A stretch of 64,000 bases of DNA, taken from contig CACIRD010000003.1 in assembly GCA_902588965.1 (NCBI GenBank), forward strand, positions 124,001 to 188,000, written 5' to 3'. Origin of the DNA: an uncultured Pelagibacteraceae bacterium. GTDB lineage: Bacteria > Pseudomonadota > Alphaproteobacteria > Pelagibacterales > Pelagibacteraceae. Below are positions 7,277 to 42,135 of the stretch, piece by piece (the first letter of the stretch is position 1; each line of letters starts with the position of its first letter). The notes under the pieces were generated by a model. The model worked only from the letters and a program-made list of their open reading frames with translations. It made no database searches and was not told the origin of the DNA. Position numbers and translations under genes: made by a program.

Positions 7277-8200
7277 TCAACTAAATTCTAATAGTGCGTT
7301 AACATGTTCATTAACACTTTCGGCTAGAGCATTTAAATCATATCCACCTTCTAAAATAGAAACTACCTTACCTGATGTAAATCTTTTTGTAGCAGTTAAA
7401 GTTCGTCTTGTAATTTCATAAAAATCATTCGATTGAAGCTTGAATTGTGCTAAAGGATCGTTCTCATGAGCATCAAAGCCAGCTGAAAAGATTATAAACT
7501 GTGGCTTAAACTCAATGAGTCTTTTAATAACGTGTTCGTATGCATTTAAATATTCATTTGAGGAAGTACCAGCTGGCAAAGGAATATTTAAAATATTATT
7601 GTACTTCCCTTTTTCATTTTCAGTACCTGTGCCAGGATAAAAAGGATATTGGTGAGTTGAAATATATAAAACTTTTTCATTTTCAAAAAATATATCTTGT
7701 GTCCCGTTACCATGGTGAACATCAAAGTCTATTATCGCAACTTTATCATAATTATATTTACTTATTAGGTAGTTTGCCCCTACGCTACAATTGTTTAAAG
7801 TACAAAATCCCATAGCTTTTTTTCTTTCTGCATGGTGACCTGGGGGTCGCACAGCACAAAATGCATTGGAAAATTTCTCTTTCTCAACTCCATCAATAGC
7901 GGAAATTATTGAACCAACTGCATCATATACTGCTTTTTTACTTCCAGGAGAAACAACGGTATCTCCATCTAAAAAACTAAAACCTTCTTTAGGAAAAGAA
8001 TTTTTTATTTGTTCTAAATAATATTTATCATGGGTTGTCTCTAAAATTTTTTGATCAAATTTCTTAGATTTACCCCAAACTAATTCTTTATTTTTTTTTA
8101 AAGTTGATACTATTGCTTTTATACGTTTTGGTTGTTCGGGGTGACCATCTCCTGTTAAATGATTTTCAGAACTATCGGAGGTAATAATTAAAGTTTTCAA
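7277..8200 (-). CDS. Histone deacetylase family protein (class II HDAC/acetoin utilisation-like)
   Basis: VRPPGHHAERKKAMGFCTLNN, IDFDVHHGNGTQDIFF, SAGFDAHENDPLAQF motifs. Confidence 0.93.
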   Translation of the reverse strand: MKTLIITSDSSENHLTGDGHPEQPKRIKAIVSTLKKNKELVWGKSKKFDQKILETTHDKYYLEQIKNSFPKEGFSFLDGDTVVSPGSKKAVYDAVGSIISAIDGVEKEKFSNAFCAVRPPGHHAERKKAMGFCTLNNCSVGANYLISKYNYDKVAIIDFDVHHGNGTQDIFFENEKVLYISTHQYPFYPGTGTENEKGKYNNILNIPLPAGTSSNEYLNAYEHVIKRLIEFKPQFIIFSAGFDAHENDPLAQFKLQSNDFYEITRRTLTATKRFTSGKVVSILEGGYDLNALAESVNEHVNALLEFS

Positions 8201-20162: not shown

Positions 20163-20378
20163 TTGTCGAAACAAGACTTATTAGAATTTAAAGGCAAGGT
20201 TATTGATTTACTTCCTAATGCTATGTTTAGAGTGCAACTTGAAAATAATCATATTGTAACAGCACATACAGCGGGCAAGTTAAGAAAAAATCGTATTAGA
20301 GTTCTTCAAGGTGATAATGTAACAGTTGAAGTTACTCCTTACGATCTAACTAAAGGTCGGATTATTTTTAGATTTTAA
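20163..20378 (+). CDS. infA: Translation initiation factor IF-1
   Basis: [44 protein letters not shown]; apparent TTG start. Confidence 0.96.
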
Positions 20379-30964: not shown

Positions 30965-32017
30965 ATGGATACATTAATAATTGTTTTAGTTGTGGCTGTT
31001 TTAATAGTTAATTTAGCCTTTTATTTTAAACTTAAAAAAGATCCTAAAACTGAAGATAGCGAAGTAGGCAAGTTAAAGGATGATATGAATGCTTTAAAAA
31101 GTTCATTAAGCGAATCTTTTAGCAGCATGAGTAAAGAAGTTGCAAAAGATATGACTGGTGCATTAACCAGAGTAGATGAAAAGGTTGCTTCATTCAACAA
31201 GCAAGTAGAAGACATTCAAACTAGTCAAAATAATTTTAGTAGGATATTAGCAGGAGTTAAACAATATGGTGGATTAAGTGAGTTTAGTTTAGCAAATCTT
31301 TTACAAGATTTATTGCCATCCTCGCAATATATTGCAAACGCAAAAATGAAACCTGAAGAAACCAGAGACCTGGTTGAGTTCGCCATTAAACTACAAAATA
31401 ATTATTTACCAATAGACAGTCATTGGCCAATTGAAAAATATAAGGCAGTTGATGAGGCATTTCAAAACAATGATAAAGATGCTCTGACTTCAGCTAGACA
31501 CGATTTAGCATCAGCTTTTAGAGCTAAATCAAAATCAGTAAATCAAAAATATATTAATCCGCCAATGTCCACAGATTTTGCTATAGTTTATGTTCCAATA
31601 GAAGGTTTGTATGCTGAGTTAGCAAGTTATAGAGATCCTAAAACTAAGGAACTATTGATGGAAGAACTAAGAAAAAAATACAAAATAACAATTGCAGGTC
31701 CAAATACAATGTGTGCATTGATACAATCATTTCATCTTGGGTTTCAAACGCTTCGTGTGCAGAAGCATGCAACTCAAATATATGATGATTTAAAAAATAT
31801 TACGACAAGATTTTCAAAACACTTTGATAATGTATTAGTCTTAAGAAAAAAGTTAGAGGAAGCAATGACAGTTGTTGATAGTTTTGGAAAAGATGCAAGA
31901 TCAATTACTAGAACTCTAGAAAATATTAAAGATCCAGATGGTGATGACAATCCTGATCCAGACTCACCATCGCCGGTGGCTGCATACGGACAAATAGATA
32001 AAAGAAAAGTATCCTGA
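30965..32017 (+). CDS. rmuC: RmuC family DNA recombination protein
   Basis: N-terminal TM, coiled coil, then YPLP/PIDSHWPIEKY, FAIVYVPIEGLYAELA, ITIAGPNTMCALI motifs. Confidence 0.88.
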   Translation: MDTLIIVLVVAVLIVNLAFYFKLKKDPKTEDSEVGKLKDDMNALKSSLSESFSSMSKEVAKDMTGALTRVDEKVASFNKQVEDIQTSQNNFSRILAGVKQYGGLSEFSLANLLQDLLPSSQYIANAKMKPEETRDLVEFAIKLQNNYLPIDSHWPIEKYKAVDEAFQNNDKDALTSARHDLASAFRAKSKSVNQKYINPPMSTDFAIVYVPIEGLYAELASYRDPKTKELLMEELRKKYKITIAGPNTMCALIQSFHLGFQTLRVQKHATQIYDDLKNITTRFSKHFDNVLVLRKKLEEAMTVVDSFGKDARSITRTLENIKDPDGDDNPDPDSPSPVAAYGQIDKRKVS

Positions 32018-32024
32018 TAAAATA

Positions 32025-32717
32025 TTGATGATAAAATGGAATAATAAATATATTTACCCAAAATCATTAAGATCATCAGAGGATGGATATAGAAAGTATT
32101 TATTTGGGAATGAAAAACTTCCATCGGTGACAAGTATACTTTCGATGACAAAGTCAGCTGAGGATAAAGCAGCATTAGAAAATTGGAAAAATAGGTTAGG
32201 GCACGCAGCAGCAAACAAAATTAAGAATGAAGCTTCAAGCAGGGGAAGTTCTTTACACGCATACGTAGAAAATTATTTGAACAATCGGGTCAATGAGAGT
32301 TTTTTTGAAAGCAACGAACTATATAAAAATATGGCTCATGAAATAATTAATAAAGGAATTATTGGAAGACTTGATGAAATTTATGGTACAGAAGTTACGC
32401 TTTTTTACCCAGAGAAGTATGCTGGTACAGCTGATTTGATAGGAGTTTATGAAGGAAAAATTTCCTGCATTGATTTGAAGCAAGCAAATAGGCCGAAAAA
32501 ATCTGATTATATTCAAGACTATTTTTTACAACTAGGAGCTTATACTCTGGCGCACGACGTTGTTCATGGTACGAAAATGGAAACAGGTATAATTTTGTTA
32601 TGTACGAAAGACATTTTATTTCAAGAATTTAAAATTGAGGGAACTGAATTAGAAATGTACCAAAATTTGTTCCTAGGAAGAGTTAAAAAGTTTTATGAAT
32701 TAAATAATATATCTTGA
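32025..32717 (+). CDS. PD-(D/E)XK exonuclease (MGME1/phage exonuclease-like)
   Basis: LPSVTSILSMT, GSSLHAYVENYL, YAGTADLIGVYEGKISCIDLKQANRPK, YFLQLGAYTLAHD. Confidence 0.75.
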   Translation: MMIKWNNKYIYPKSLRSSEDGYRKYLFGNEKLPSVTSILSMTKSAEDKAALENWKNRLGHAAANKIKNEASSRGSSLHAYVENYLNNRVNESFFESNELYKNMAHEIINKGIIGRLDEIYGTEVTLFYPEKYAGTADLIGVYEGKISCIDLKQANRPKKSDYIQDYFLQLGAYTLAHDVVHGTKMETGIILLCTKDILFQEFKIEGTELEMYQNLFLGRVKKFYELNNIS

Positions 32718-32818: not shown

Positions 32819-34299
32819 ATGAATTTAGCAATTTGGGATATAGAAAGCTCTTCAGCATCCACAGATTTCGGAAGTATAATCGAGATCGGTGGCATACTTG
32901 TCGATGAAAATTTCAAGGAAAAAGACAGGTTTAATTTGAGATGTCGACTGCCTGAAGGTGAAATTCCTCAGGCATATAGCCTTATTATTAATAAGACAAG
33001 TGTAGACCAACTTACAAAAGTTAATTTAAGTCATTATCAAATGCTTGGAGAAGTTGAAAAAATTTTTAAGAGATGGTCTCCCGCCATATTTTTAGGGTGG
33101 TCCAATATAGGGCGGCTGCCCCCTCTTTAACAGGAGGGGGTTAGTCGCTTTTAAAAAAAGGATTTGATGATGAAATGATTAGAAAGGAGTTCTTTAAGGG
33201 TATTAGATACCCATATATTACAAACGCAACACCAAATAAGAGACATGATGGTTTAAATATAGCTAGAGGAGCCTACGCAATAGATCCAACAATTCTAAAA
33301 ACTGAGATTAATGAAAAAAATAATGCAGTTTTTAAACTAGCTTCGCTTTCCAAAATGAACGGTTTTGATTCTACTGATGCACACTCAGCTTTATTTGATG
33401 CAAATTTAACCGTAAAAATTTTAGGTTTGATTAAAAAAAGACAACCAAATACTTGGGATACTTTTTTAAAAACTGCAAATAAACTTGATACTGAAACAAT
33501 TTTTAAAAAAGAAAGTATCATTACATTAAACGAATATTTTTATGGCAAATCGCGCTTATACTTATGTGCACCTTTACATCCCAAGCACTGTATTCACCCT
33601 GTTTACCAATGGGGACAAGCAATAGATTTAAGATCTAATGTTGAACCTTTGATCAATATGTCGATCAATGAATTAAAGAATGAAATGAAAAAAACTCCTA
33701 AATTTTTAAGAACGATTAGGTCTAATAAAGCGCCTATCATATTAGATGCCATGTATGGCATGAAGGTCGAACCTTATAATGCGTTAGATCCAGAATTAAT
33801 AAAAAAAAGAGCAAAACTTGTAAGAGAAAACGAAAAGTTTTCGCAAAATATTCTAACCGCCTTAAGAGAAATTGCGGAGGAAAAAGAACAATCAAAATCT
33901 CAAGAAGATATTTATGCTGAAGAAAGTATTTATAAGAAATTTACCTCTAACAAAGATACTGCACTTTTTCCAGCATGGCACGCCGCGCCTTGGAAAGAAA
34001 AATTAAAATTATTAGATAAATTTGAAGATGAAAGGTTACGGGGGTTTGGAAAAAAAATTATTTACCAAGAAGCACCAGATGTATTACCAAAAGAAATGTA
34101 TAAAAAGATTAAAAGCCAGATAGCTAGAAGAATTTTAAGTGAAAATAAGGAAAAATTTATGACTATAAAAGAGGCTTTTTTTGAAATTGATAATTTAAGA
34201 AATAAATTTTCAGACGAGAACGATGAAGAAAAAATGAAATTTCTTGATGAATTGAATAGTTATGTGATGTCAATACAAGCAAAATACGAGAATGCGTAG
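32819..34299 (+). CDS. sbcB: Exonuclease I (DEDD family), interrupted by a 50-nt insertion; two zero-frame ORFs 32819-33130 and 33175-34299
   Basis: WDIESSSASTDFGSIIEIGGI...GWSNIG | FDDEMIRKEFFKGIRYPY: removal of 50 nt restores one frame and the conserved N-I-x-F-D-D-E motif. Confidence 0.75.
33111..33160 (+). other. 50-nt hairpin-forming insertion inside sbcB
   Basis: ggcggctgccccctctttaacaggagggggttagtcgcttttaaaaaaag; CCCCCTC/GAGGGGG stem extended by GCGGCT/AGTCGC with a GU pair and one bulge. Confidence 0.8.
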
Positions 34300-34333: not shown

Positions 34334-34651
34334 ATGCTTATAAATTTTAAAGATGAAGATTTTGATAGTAAAATAAAGAATGAAGATGTAGCTGTAATTC
34401 AATTTTCTGCTGATTTTTGTGGTCCTTGTAAAGTTTTAAGGCCGATTATGGATAAATTGTCAGATGAGTACAAAGAAAAATGTAAAATGTTTTATGCAGA
34501 TATCGAAAACGATGGAATTAATACGGGAAGTGCTGCACAAATAAAAGGTGTACCCACGGTTATTATTTATAAGAAAGGTGTGGAAGTAGATAGGCAAGTT
34601 GGTGGAGTTCCAGAAAGTCACATGAGAGAATTTTTAGAAAAAAATATCTAA
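34334..34651 (+). CDS. Thioredoxin family protein
   Basis: IQFSADFCGPCKVLRPIMDKL active site, KGVPTVIIYKKG. Confidence 0.93.
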   Translation: MLINFKDEDFDSKIKNEDVAVIQFSADFCGPCKVLRPIMDKLSDEYKEKCKMFYADIENDGINTGSAAQIKGVPTVIIYKKGVEVDRQVGGVPESHMREFLEKNI

Positions 34652-40401: not shown

Positions 40402-42135
40402 TTAATCTTCCTTTTTATTTTTACTTTTAGTTAGTTTATCTGAAAGTGATGAAAATGGAAGATTTTTACCAGATAAAGGTGAGCTAAATTTGTTTACAGC
40501 TTCCTTGTTTTGAAGTTCTTCTAATAATTTAATACTTAAAGTGACTTTTCTTTTTGCCGAATTTAATTCAGAAATAGCAGCATCAATTCTTTCACCGCCA
40601 ACAAATCTTGATGGCCTTGCATCTGCTGCGTTAATTGCAATTTGCGATTTTTTAATTTGTAGTTCAATTTTGCTACCTTCTGGCTGGACTATCAAACCTT
40701 TATTATCAGAAGAAATTACTTTAACGGTAATTGTATCATTAACTTTCTTATCCTTGAACCAGTCAAATGGATCAGCTTGATTTTGCTTTATTCCCACTCT
40801 GACTTTTTGCTGATCAGTCTTTATTTCCAAAATTTTAACTTTTAATTTATCTCCTTTTTTATATTTTTTTAATTCTTCATCTGGATTTTTTTCATATGTT
40901 AAATCATTCGCATGCAAAAAGCCGTCAATGTCATAATTATCAATTCTTACATATATTGCATAATCGTTTATACTATTGACTACACCCTCAACTACACTTC
41001 CAACTGGATTTTCTTTTTCAAGTTTAGAGTAAGGATTTTCAGTTGTTAATCTATGAGAAATTGAAACTCTTCTTTTTTCTTTATCAATTTCTGTAATTAC
41101 ACATGATATTTCATCACCGATCTTGAACATTTTTTTTGCAGATGGATTTTTTTTCGTCCAACTTAGTTCACTAGAGTGAAGCAAGGTAGTTAGTCCAGGT
41201 TCTAGTTCACAGAAAGCTCCAAAATCCATCATCTTGACTACTTTAACTTTGTATTCTTTGTTTAACTCGTAGTTAGATATATGTTCGAAAGGATCCGGAG
41301 AAAGTTGTTTAATAGAACATCCAACTTGCTGTTTTTCTTTGTCTACGGTTATAACTTTTAAATCATGTTTTTCACCAATATTAAAAATTTCCTCTGGGTG
41401 ATTTACTCTAGAGTAACTAATTTCCTGCAAATGAACTAATACATCCAATTCTGAGTTTACATCAAAAAAACATCCAAAAGAACTATAGCCTTTAACAATT
41501 GCACCTTTGATTACATCTCCAACTTTATATTTTTCAATAATTTTTGCTTTATCTTCTTTTTTATTAGATGAAATAATTTGTCTTCTAGATACACATGCAT
41601 TTCCTCTTATTTTATCAAGTTTGATTAAAGCAAATTTTTGGGGTTCATTCATTAAATGGGAAATATCTTTTAAGGGCTTATCAGATATCTGTGAACCTGG
41701 GCAAAACATTAATGATCCCGTATCTATATGTTCAACTATAACTCCACCTTTACATTTGCTAGTGATTTTACCTGTTATAGGTTCATTTTTTTCATAAGCT
41801 TCAACTAGCCTATCCCATCCTTTTATTTTTAAAGCTTTAGAAGCTGAAACAACTACATCGCCGTTTTTATCTTCAATTCTTTCTAACAGAACTGATACTT
41901 TGCTACCTAATTTTATTTTATCTATTATTCCAATAGTTTTAAATTCATTAATGTCAATTACTGGCTCAGATTTTAAACCTTCGATAAATAAAAAAACAAA
42001 TTTTTCTGTTATTTTTGTAATTTTACCTTCTATTATCTTGCCTTCAGCTAAATTTTTTGTTTTTGATAATTGACTATCTAATAATTTTTGAAATTCCTTT
42101 GAGGCAGGCGTTTCTAAAGAATTATATATTTCCAT
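40402..42135 (-). CDS. rpsA: 30S ribosomal protein S1
   Basis: 577 aa with repeated S1 motifs (GAFCELEPGLTTLLHSSELSW etc.). Confidence 0.96.
   Translation of the reverse strand: MEIYNSLETPASKEFQKLLDSQLSKTKNLAEGKIIEGKITKITEKFVFLFIEGLKSEPVIDINEFKTIGIIDKIKLGSKVSVLLERIEDKNGDVVVSASKALKIKGWDRLVEAYEKNEPITGKITSKCKGGVIVEHIDTGSLMFCPGSQISDKPLKDISHLMNEPQKFALIKLDKIRGNACVSRRQIISSNKKEDKAKIIEKYKVGDVIKGAIVKGYSSFGCFFDVNSELDVLVHLQEISYSRVNHPEEIFNIGEKHDLKVITVDKEKQQVGCSIKQLSPDPFEHISNYELNKEYKVKVVKMMDFGAFCELEPGLTTLLHSSELSWTKKNPSAKKMFKIGDEISCVITEIDKEKRRVSISHRLTTENPYSKLEKENPVGSVVEGVVNSINDYAIYVRIDNYDIDGFLHANDLTYEKNPDEELKKYKKGDKLKVKILEIKTDQQKVRVGIKQNQADPFDWFKDKKVNDTITVKVISSDNKGLIVQPEGSKIELQIKKSQIAINAADARPSRFVGGERIDAAISELNSAKRKVTLSIKLLEELQNKEAVNKFSSPLSGKNLPFSSLSDKLTKSKNKKED

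Follow-up and report, generated by a model that had tools for sequence, protein, structure and literature searches.

How can exonuclease I be made from an sbcB gene that a 50-nucleotide (nt) GC-rich hairpin cuts in two? This is the question raised by a 64,000-nt stretch of contig CACIRD010000003.1 from an uncultured Pelagibacteraceae bacterium (hereafter the window, meaning the whole stretch analyzed), in which such an insert (33110-33159) divides sbcB at GWSNI-G-FDDE. The original prediction, made on the window alone, offered two candidates, a site of translational bypass or a new kind of palindromic insertion element. Our results point to both together: there are 16 copies, spread over six sites in five genes, among them the single-copy infA; the insertion family is observed, and the bypass is what we infer. 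Our favored reading, which we consider probable, is that the hairpins represent a mobile family of translational bypass elements, similar to the yeast mitochondrial byps, in a bacterial chromosome.

The interruption of sbcB is clear-cut on reading the window and agrees with its first description. The N-terminal open reading frame (ORF; 32819-33130) terminates as GWSNIGRLPPL followed by a stop, the frame downstream, open over 33145-34299, resumes as GFDDEMIRKEFF, both halves are conserved, and removal of the 50 nt restores GWSNIGFDDE within a 476-residue exonuclease I. Because of a shared AGG, the position of the insert is ambiguous by 3 nt, with four equivalent placements from 33109-33158 to 33112-33161. 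The predicted GC-rich hairpin was borne out as well: the insert RNA has a minimum free energy of -29.7 kcal/mol (z = -4.5), with none of 200 shuffles equally stable, its central 38-mer is the GC-richest in the 64 kb (66% versus 28% overall), and the motif CCCCCTC-N-GAGGGGG has 0.00 expected occurrences in the window. The joined SbcB protein is related to the solved E. coli exonuclease I. Aligning the gene with relatives, as had been proposed, showed that sbcB is uninterrupted in most of the 52 that match (some as fragments only); in four species it is interrupted at the same codon. In G000 (genomes and loci are given by our own codes), sbcB has four private changes at positions that are invariant in the rest, with no clear excess of changes that would mark gene decay. 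Near the C terminus, codons 430, 431, and 456 of the window sbcB carry private changes (WW to FM and L to M) where the relatives are invariant.

The insert belongs to a family. The 50-mer itself, which it had been suggested to search for, is single-copy in its own genome, where a search for further copies gave A-tract matches only, and it is the relatives that carry the same kind of insert at six sites. A scan of 399 congeneric genomes allowing three mismatches returned one other locus, in G571, where sbcB is interrupted at the same codon by an insert that shares the TAAC loop, has two stem pairs that are altered yet still pair, and displaces the frame by 49 nt. The rest of the family was found by successive covariance-model scans of the whole genomes of Pelagibacter relatives, which are draft assemblies of 71-97% completeness; the copy count is to be read as at least 16. 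A first model, built from the window and G571 copies, recovered sbcB inserts in G079 and G787 (the latter with a largely different stem sequence), infA inserts in G462 and G619, and a trxA insert in G630. A second model added G355, with an insert at a different codon of infA, as well as G009 and G202, each with one in a histone-deacetylase-family gene (hdac), and a third added hdac in G067, G698, and G722, trxA in G069, and rpsA in G355 and G202. The 16 copies thus occupy six sites in sbcB (four species), infA (two sites, three species), trxA (two), hdac (five), and rpsA (two), and insert-free sites exist in relatives for all five genes, for example in an rpsA that is 90% identical to that of G355. 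Judged by their sequences, the hairpins are small elements of one probably mobile family, not described before, within the genus to which this SAR11-type genome belongs. As a separate observation, the thioredoxin gene adjacent to sbcB (L070; window 34334-34651) exists in two very different types among congeners, with ~28% identity between the window and G069/G630.

All copies share a common anatomy. Each is inserted immediately before a codon, opens with an NGG codon, and runs up to the codon where the host's own frame takes over again. The displacement is 44-51 nt (sbcB, 50, 49, 51, and 49; infA site 1, 50 and 50; infA site 2, 47; trxA, 49 and 46; hdac, 44 in all five; rpsA, 46 and 46). It varies even within one site (49, 50, and 51 in sbcB; 46 and 49 in trxA), and all three residues modulo 3 are represented with the downstream frame open. 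This variation of the gap length modulo 3 rules out both read-through and a fixed frameshift. In 15 of the 16 copies the insert opens with GGG and the host resumes at Gly (GGA or GGT); at infA site 2 it opens with CGG and the host resumes at AGA (Arg). The first codon is thus synonymous with the resumption codon at every one of the six sites, its first base differing at the Arg site only. No target duplication accounts for the CGG/AGA synonymy. For the proposed Gly take-off and landing codons in the window sbcB, the displacement of 50 nt holds, and the pair is synonymous rather than identical. None of the six sites departs from phase 0, an outcome with P = 0.0014 if phase were random. An in-frame stop is present in 15 copies, two codons past the first codon in eight, later in seven, and absent from G787; the TAA noted at 33128 is indeed in the zero frame of the window copy, though six codons past GGG and not adjoining it. 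The hairpin, of ~15-19 base pairs (bp), begins at or a few bases from the first codon and is followed by a 5- to 11-nt A/U-rich spacer before the landing codon. The stem is conserved through compensatory changes: 8 of 19 pairs are changed on both sides in one set of copies (a score matched by 1 of 500 shuffles) and 5 of 17 in an independent second set, and slid controls collapse in both.

The distribution of the copies suggests how they spread. Carriers of the sbcB insert stand at four positions on the sbcB tree, and a single clade is rejected (P = 1.3e-6, approximately unbiased test). The sbcB of G571 (L064) is nearly identical in protein to that of its empty sister G049 (L009), and in a tract of ~75 codons around the insert their synonymous identity falls from 106/120 to 45/71 (Fisher P = 8e-5, for bins picked after inspection). 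Because synonymous identity is lower around the insert in genes that are otherwise nearly identical, the comparison suggests that a short insert-bearing tract was imported by recombination. G355 (L112) and G202 (L088) share the rpsA element without a single difference in its 46 nt, although the synonymous sites of rpsA are saturated. A homing endonuclease was looked for within 20-40 kb of four carriers, and none was recognized among seven unshared ORFs inspected by eye and not profiled. Despite genome-wide model searches, all five host genes lie within window positions 7280-42135, a syntenic stretch of ~35 kb in a genome of 1.14 Mb (crude P of ~4e-6).

Next to be considered is whether the interrupted genes still function. 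In G462 and G619, the only match to infA is the interrupted copy, and five other relatives each hold a single intact copy; infA, encoding translation initiation factor 1 (IF-1), is essential in E. coli. The rpsA gene, which is very probably essential here, is interrupted in two assemblies that are 97% complete, and downstream of the insert these two carriers differ by a synonymous divergence (dS) of ~2.2 and a nonsynonymous divergence (dN) of ~0.15. Between close carriers of the hdac insert, the corresponding dN is 0.04-0.07 versus a dS of 0.34-1.15. No other stop or frameshift was found in any of the host genes, and, once joined, IF-1, thioredoxin, the deacetylase, and S1 each match the whole of their Pfam domains. 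These data argue for joined proteins of full length that are kept by purifying selection. Separate production of the two halves would not rescue activity in hdac or sbcB, since the insert directly precedes the catalytic residues (HHAE and FDDE, respectively) and the resumed frame has no start codon ahead of them; in infA, the sole downstream in-frame ATG would leave ~15 residues.

Taken together, it is very probable that the cell skips the hairpins when making protein. The favored reading, translational bypass, would work as follows. The element would consist of a first codon that supplies the correct amino acid (GGG, or CGG for Arg), a GC-rich hairpin of 15-19 bp, and a short A/U-rich spacer. 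The ribosome would translate through the first insert codon, leave the frame at the base of the hairpin, and resume after a synonymous landing codon 44-51 nt downstream, such that the split gene would still give a full-length protein. Insert-bearing alleles would pass between species together with their flanks via homologous recombination. That the skip occurs during translation, yielding a full-length product, is what the arrangement of codons and frames suggests.

Several points weigh against this reading. RNA-level excision would yield identical proteins. At infA site 2, the CGG/AGA pair cannot depend on one tRNA re-pairing at both codons. The phase 0 evidence comes from six sites only, and were GG the insertion target, its P value would weaken to 0.05 for the five Gly sites. 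No shared nascent-peptide signal was seen, the 30 upstream residues being wholly different between genes, nor does any copy have KKYK at the T4 distance, a stop directly adjoining the take-off codon, or a Shine-Dalgarno (SD)-like sequence at a fixed distance from the landing codon. The assemblies of G462 and G619 are 82-88% complete, which leaves a small loophole for a second infA, and the search for second gene copies covered infA only. The clustering of the host genes within 35 kb is not predicted by a bypass model. It is conceivable, at somewhat below even chances, that mobile SAR11 hairpins in essential genes are eliminated during expression with no re-pairing of codons. This would happen either through ribosome jumping that is driven by the hairpin and uses neither matched codons nor a nascent-peptide signal or through a new bacterial mRNA mini-intron pathway.

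The main rival to bypass, to which we assign a rather low probability, is removal at the RNA level: the hairpin would mark a mini-intron that is excised from the mRNA (a structure-specific nuclease together with a ligase could do this) or that RNA polymerase skips, and the ribosome would read the joined message. Such removal accounts equally well for the function of infA and rpsA, tolerates any gap length, needs no codon re-pairing for CGG/AGA, and fits the conserved hairpin. Yet phase 0 at six sites together with first-codon synonymy would be unexpected if the segment were removed before translation, no Rfam family matches, and we know of no 44- to 51-nt mRNA intron of this kind in bacteria. 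We prefer bypass on account of phase 0 at the six sites and of the first insert codon, the one that bypass would decode, which in each case specifies the residue that the host protein requires.

The other readings are unlikely. Selfish or accidental hairpins might simply have inactivated their hosts, the copies being recent and the genes dead or polymorphic. The patchy distribution, the perhaps dispensable nature of sbcB, trxA, and the hdac-like gene, and the private changes in the G000 sbcB would suit this possibility, which is nonetheless a poor fit to the interruption of single-copy infA, at two sites across three species, and of rpsA in two species, to host genes without further lesions and with dN far below dS between carriers, and to insertions that are exact, in phase 0, and codon-matched every time; the recent inactivation considered originally is thus unlikely. 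Still less likely is a split enzyme whose halves are made separately, by termination and re-initiation, and then assemble. Although an AAGGA-like sequence precedes the ATG at 33175, this ATG lies 3' of the catalytic FDDE, which the product would lack, and the missing start codons in sbcB and hdac and the ~15-residue infA remnant argue the same way. That the insert is an assembly or amplification artefact of the window genome is highly improbable: the genome is a draft of 14 contigs in which the insert sequence is unique, but three further species have the same site with related, covarying sequence, and at least ten more genomes hold the same type of element in other genes, a recurrence that disposes of the artefact proposed earlier.

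How do these elements compare with known systems? T4 gene 60 has a noncoding gap of ~50 nt, Gly take-off and landing codons, a take-off hairpin, an in-gap stop, and a two-frame product, and a mobile history has been proposed for it (PMC5009743, PMC11194080). The analogy drawn in the original prediction stands for the gap, here 44-51 nt between two ORFs of one conserved protein, and for the stem-loop at its start. It does not extend to the codons (GGG to GGA or GGT, CGG to AGA), to a stop adjoining take-off, or to a KKYK-type nascent-peptide signal; moreover, one 15- to 19-bp hairpin fills almost the whole SAR11 gap, the contexts are unrelated, and the hosts are chromosomal housekeeping genes. 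Byps of yeast mitochondria are 27-55 nt long and GC-rich. In Magnusiomyces capitatus and Saprochaete clavata they interrupt many genes, their bypass is independent of mRNA context, and the codons are not always matched (PMC5009743). Compared by features rather than by sequence, the SAR11 elements resemble them as short structured inserts in several genes, present or absent between relatives, which would make byps a closer analogue than T4 gene 60. Unlike byps, which are mitochondrial and number dozens per genome, the SAR11 elements are chromosomal, one or two per genome, and confined to one region. Rickettsia palindromic elements are also palindromic inserts inside alphaproteobacterial protein genes, but they are ~100-150 bp long, in frame, and translated as an extra peptide, whereas the SAR11 elements are 44-51 bp, mostly out of frame, and contain in-frame stops. 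With intrinsic terminators and REP-type repeats they share a GC-rich hairpin, and the covariance models weakly score SAR11 terminators; these are intergenic, with a long U tract, in contrast to the SAR11 elements, which sit within conserved coding genes, all in a single orientation, and have no terminator-length U tract. T4 gene 60 and yeast mitochondria provide the documented cases of efficient bypassing, and reports from bacterial cellular genes are few and unconfirmed (PMC5009743).

Beyond the genus, exact and degenerate insert patterns gave no match in viral contigs, and phages, plasmids, and E. coli genomes gave no convincing match to the insert. A scan of genome contigs found two unrelated loci outside SAR11, with a pattern too narrow for true relatives. 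Rfam gave no hit at gathering score, with weak chance hits only on the window insert. Matches of a stem-only pattern in 397 family genomes were ordinary terminators, as were the weak model hits L083-L085 and L104-L106, and hits L101-L103 had unstable structures and were not insertion-like. Reverse-strand model hits were discarded, because the element is nearly palindromic and both strands score. No paper in the literature searched joins SAR11 with translational bypass, and a Pelagibacter structured-RNA survey mentions neither infA nor sbcB. Immediately upstream of sbcB, an RmuC-family gene (30965-32017) and a weak PD-(D/E)XK nuclease match (32028-32717) form a small DNA-metabolism cluster with it.

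Features of the window that bear on the inserted element, with positions counted from its first letter
Feature	Position	Strand	Remarks
sbcB (exonuclease I), 5' part, up to GWSNI	32819-33109	+	N-terminal DnaQ-like motif WDIE; matches residues 1-97 of relatives' sbcB
GGG, first insert codon, proposed Gly take-off, in hairpin base	33110-33112	+	
Imperfect hairpin, 19 pairs, TAAC loop, one bulge	33109-33151	+	Covariation in relatives
TAA, in frame, inside insert	33128-33130	+	
A/U-rich spacer between hairpin and landing codon	33152-33159	+	5-11 nt; sequence and length differ between species
GGA, proposed landing codon, Gly of NI-G-FDDE, 50 nt from GGG	33160-33162	+	GGA, GGT, or GGC at relatives' empty sites
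sbcB, 3' part (FDDEMIRK...), open, C-terminal exonuclease domain	33163-34299	+	Pfam PF08411, 4e-17; NF008746, 4e-31
Histone-deacetylase-family gene (hdac)	7280-8200	-	Empty site at Gly codon 7838-7840 (RPPG-HHAE); interrupted in five relatives
infA (IF-1), intact in window	20163-20372	+	Two sites, LR-K and LQG-D, interrupted in relatives
trxA (thioredoxin), intact in window	34334-34651	+	sbcB-adjacent gene interrupted before Gly of KF-G-VRG in G630 and G069
rpsA (ribosomal protein S1), intact in window (KLDKIRGNACVSRR)	40411-42135	-	G355 and G202 interrupted before the same Gly

If the bypass reading is true, bacterial ribosomes would skip long gaps routinely, including in the genes for IF-1 and S1, in a very abundant bacterial group, and the family would provide many natural variants for defining a minimal bypass signal. 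Should the hairpins instead be removed at the RNA level, the process would be categorically new, newer than bypass in bacteria. On the bypass reading, genes annotated as pseudogenes in streamlined genomes may be functional.
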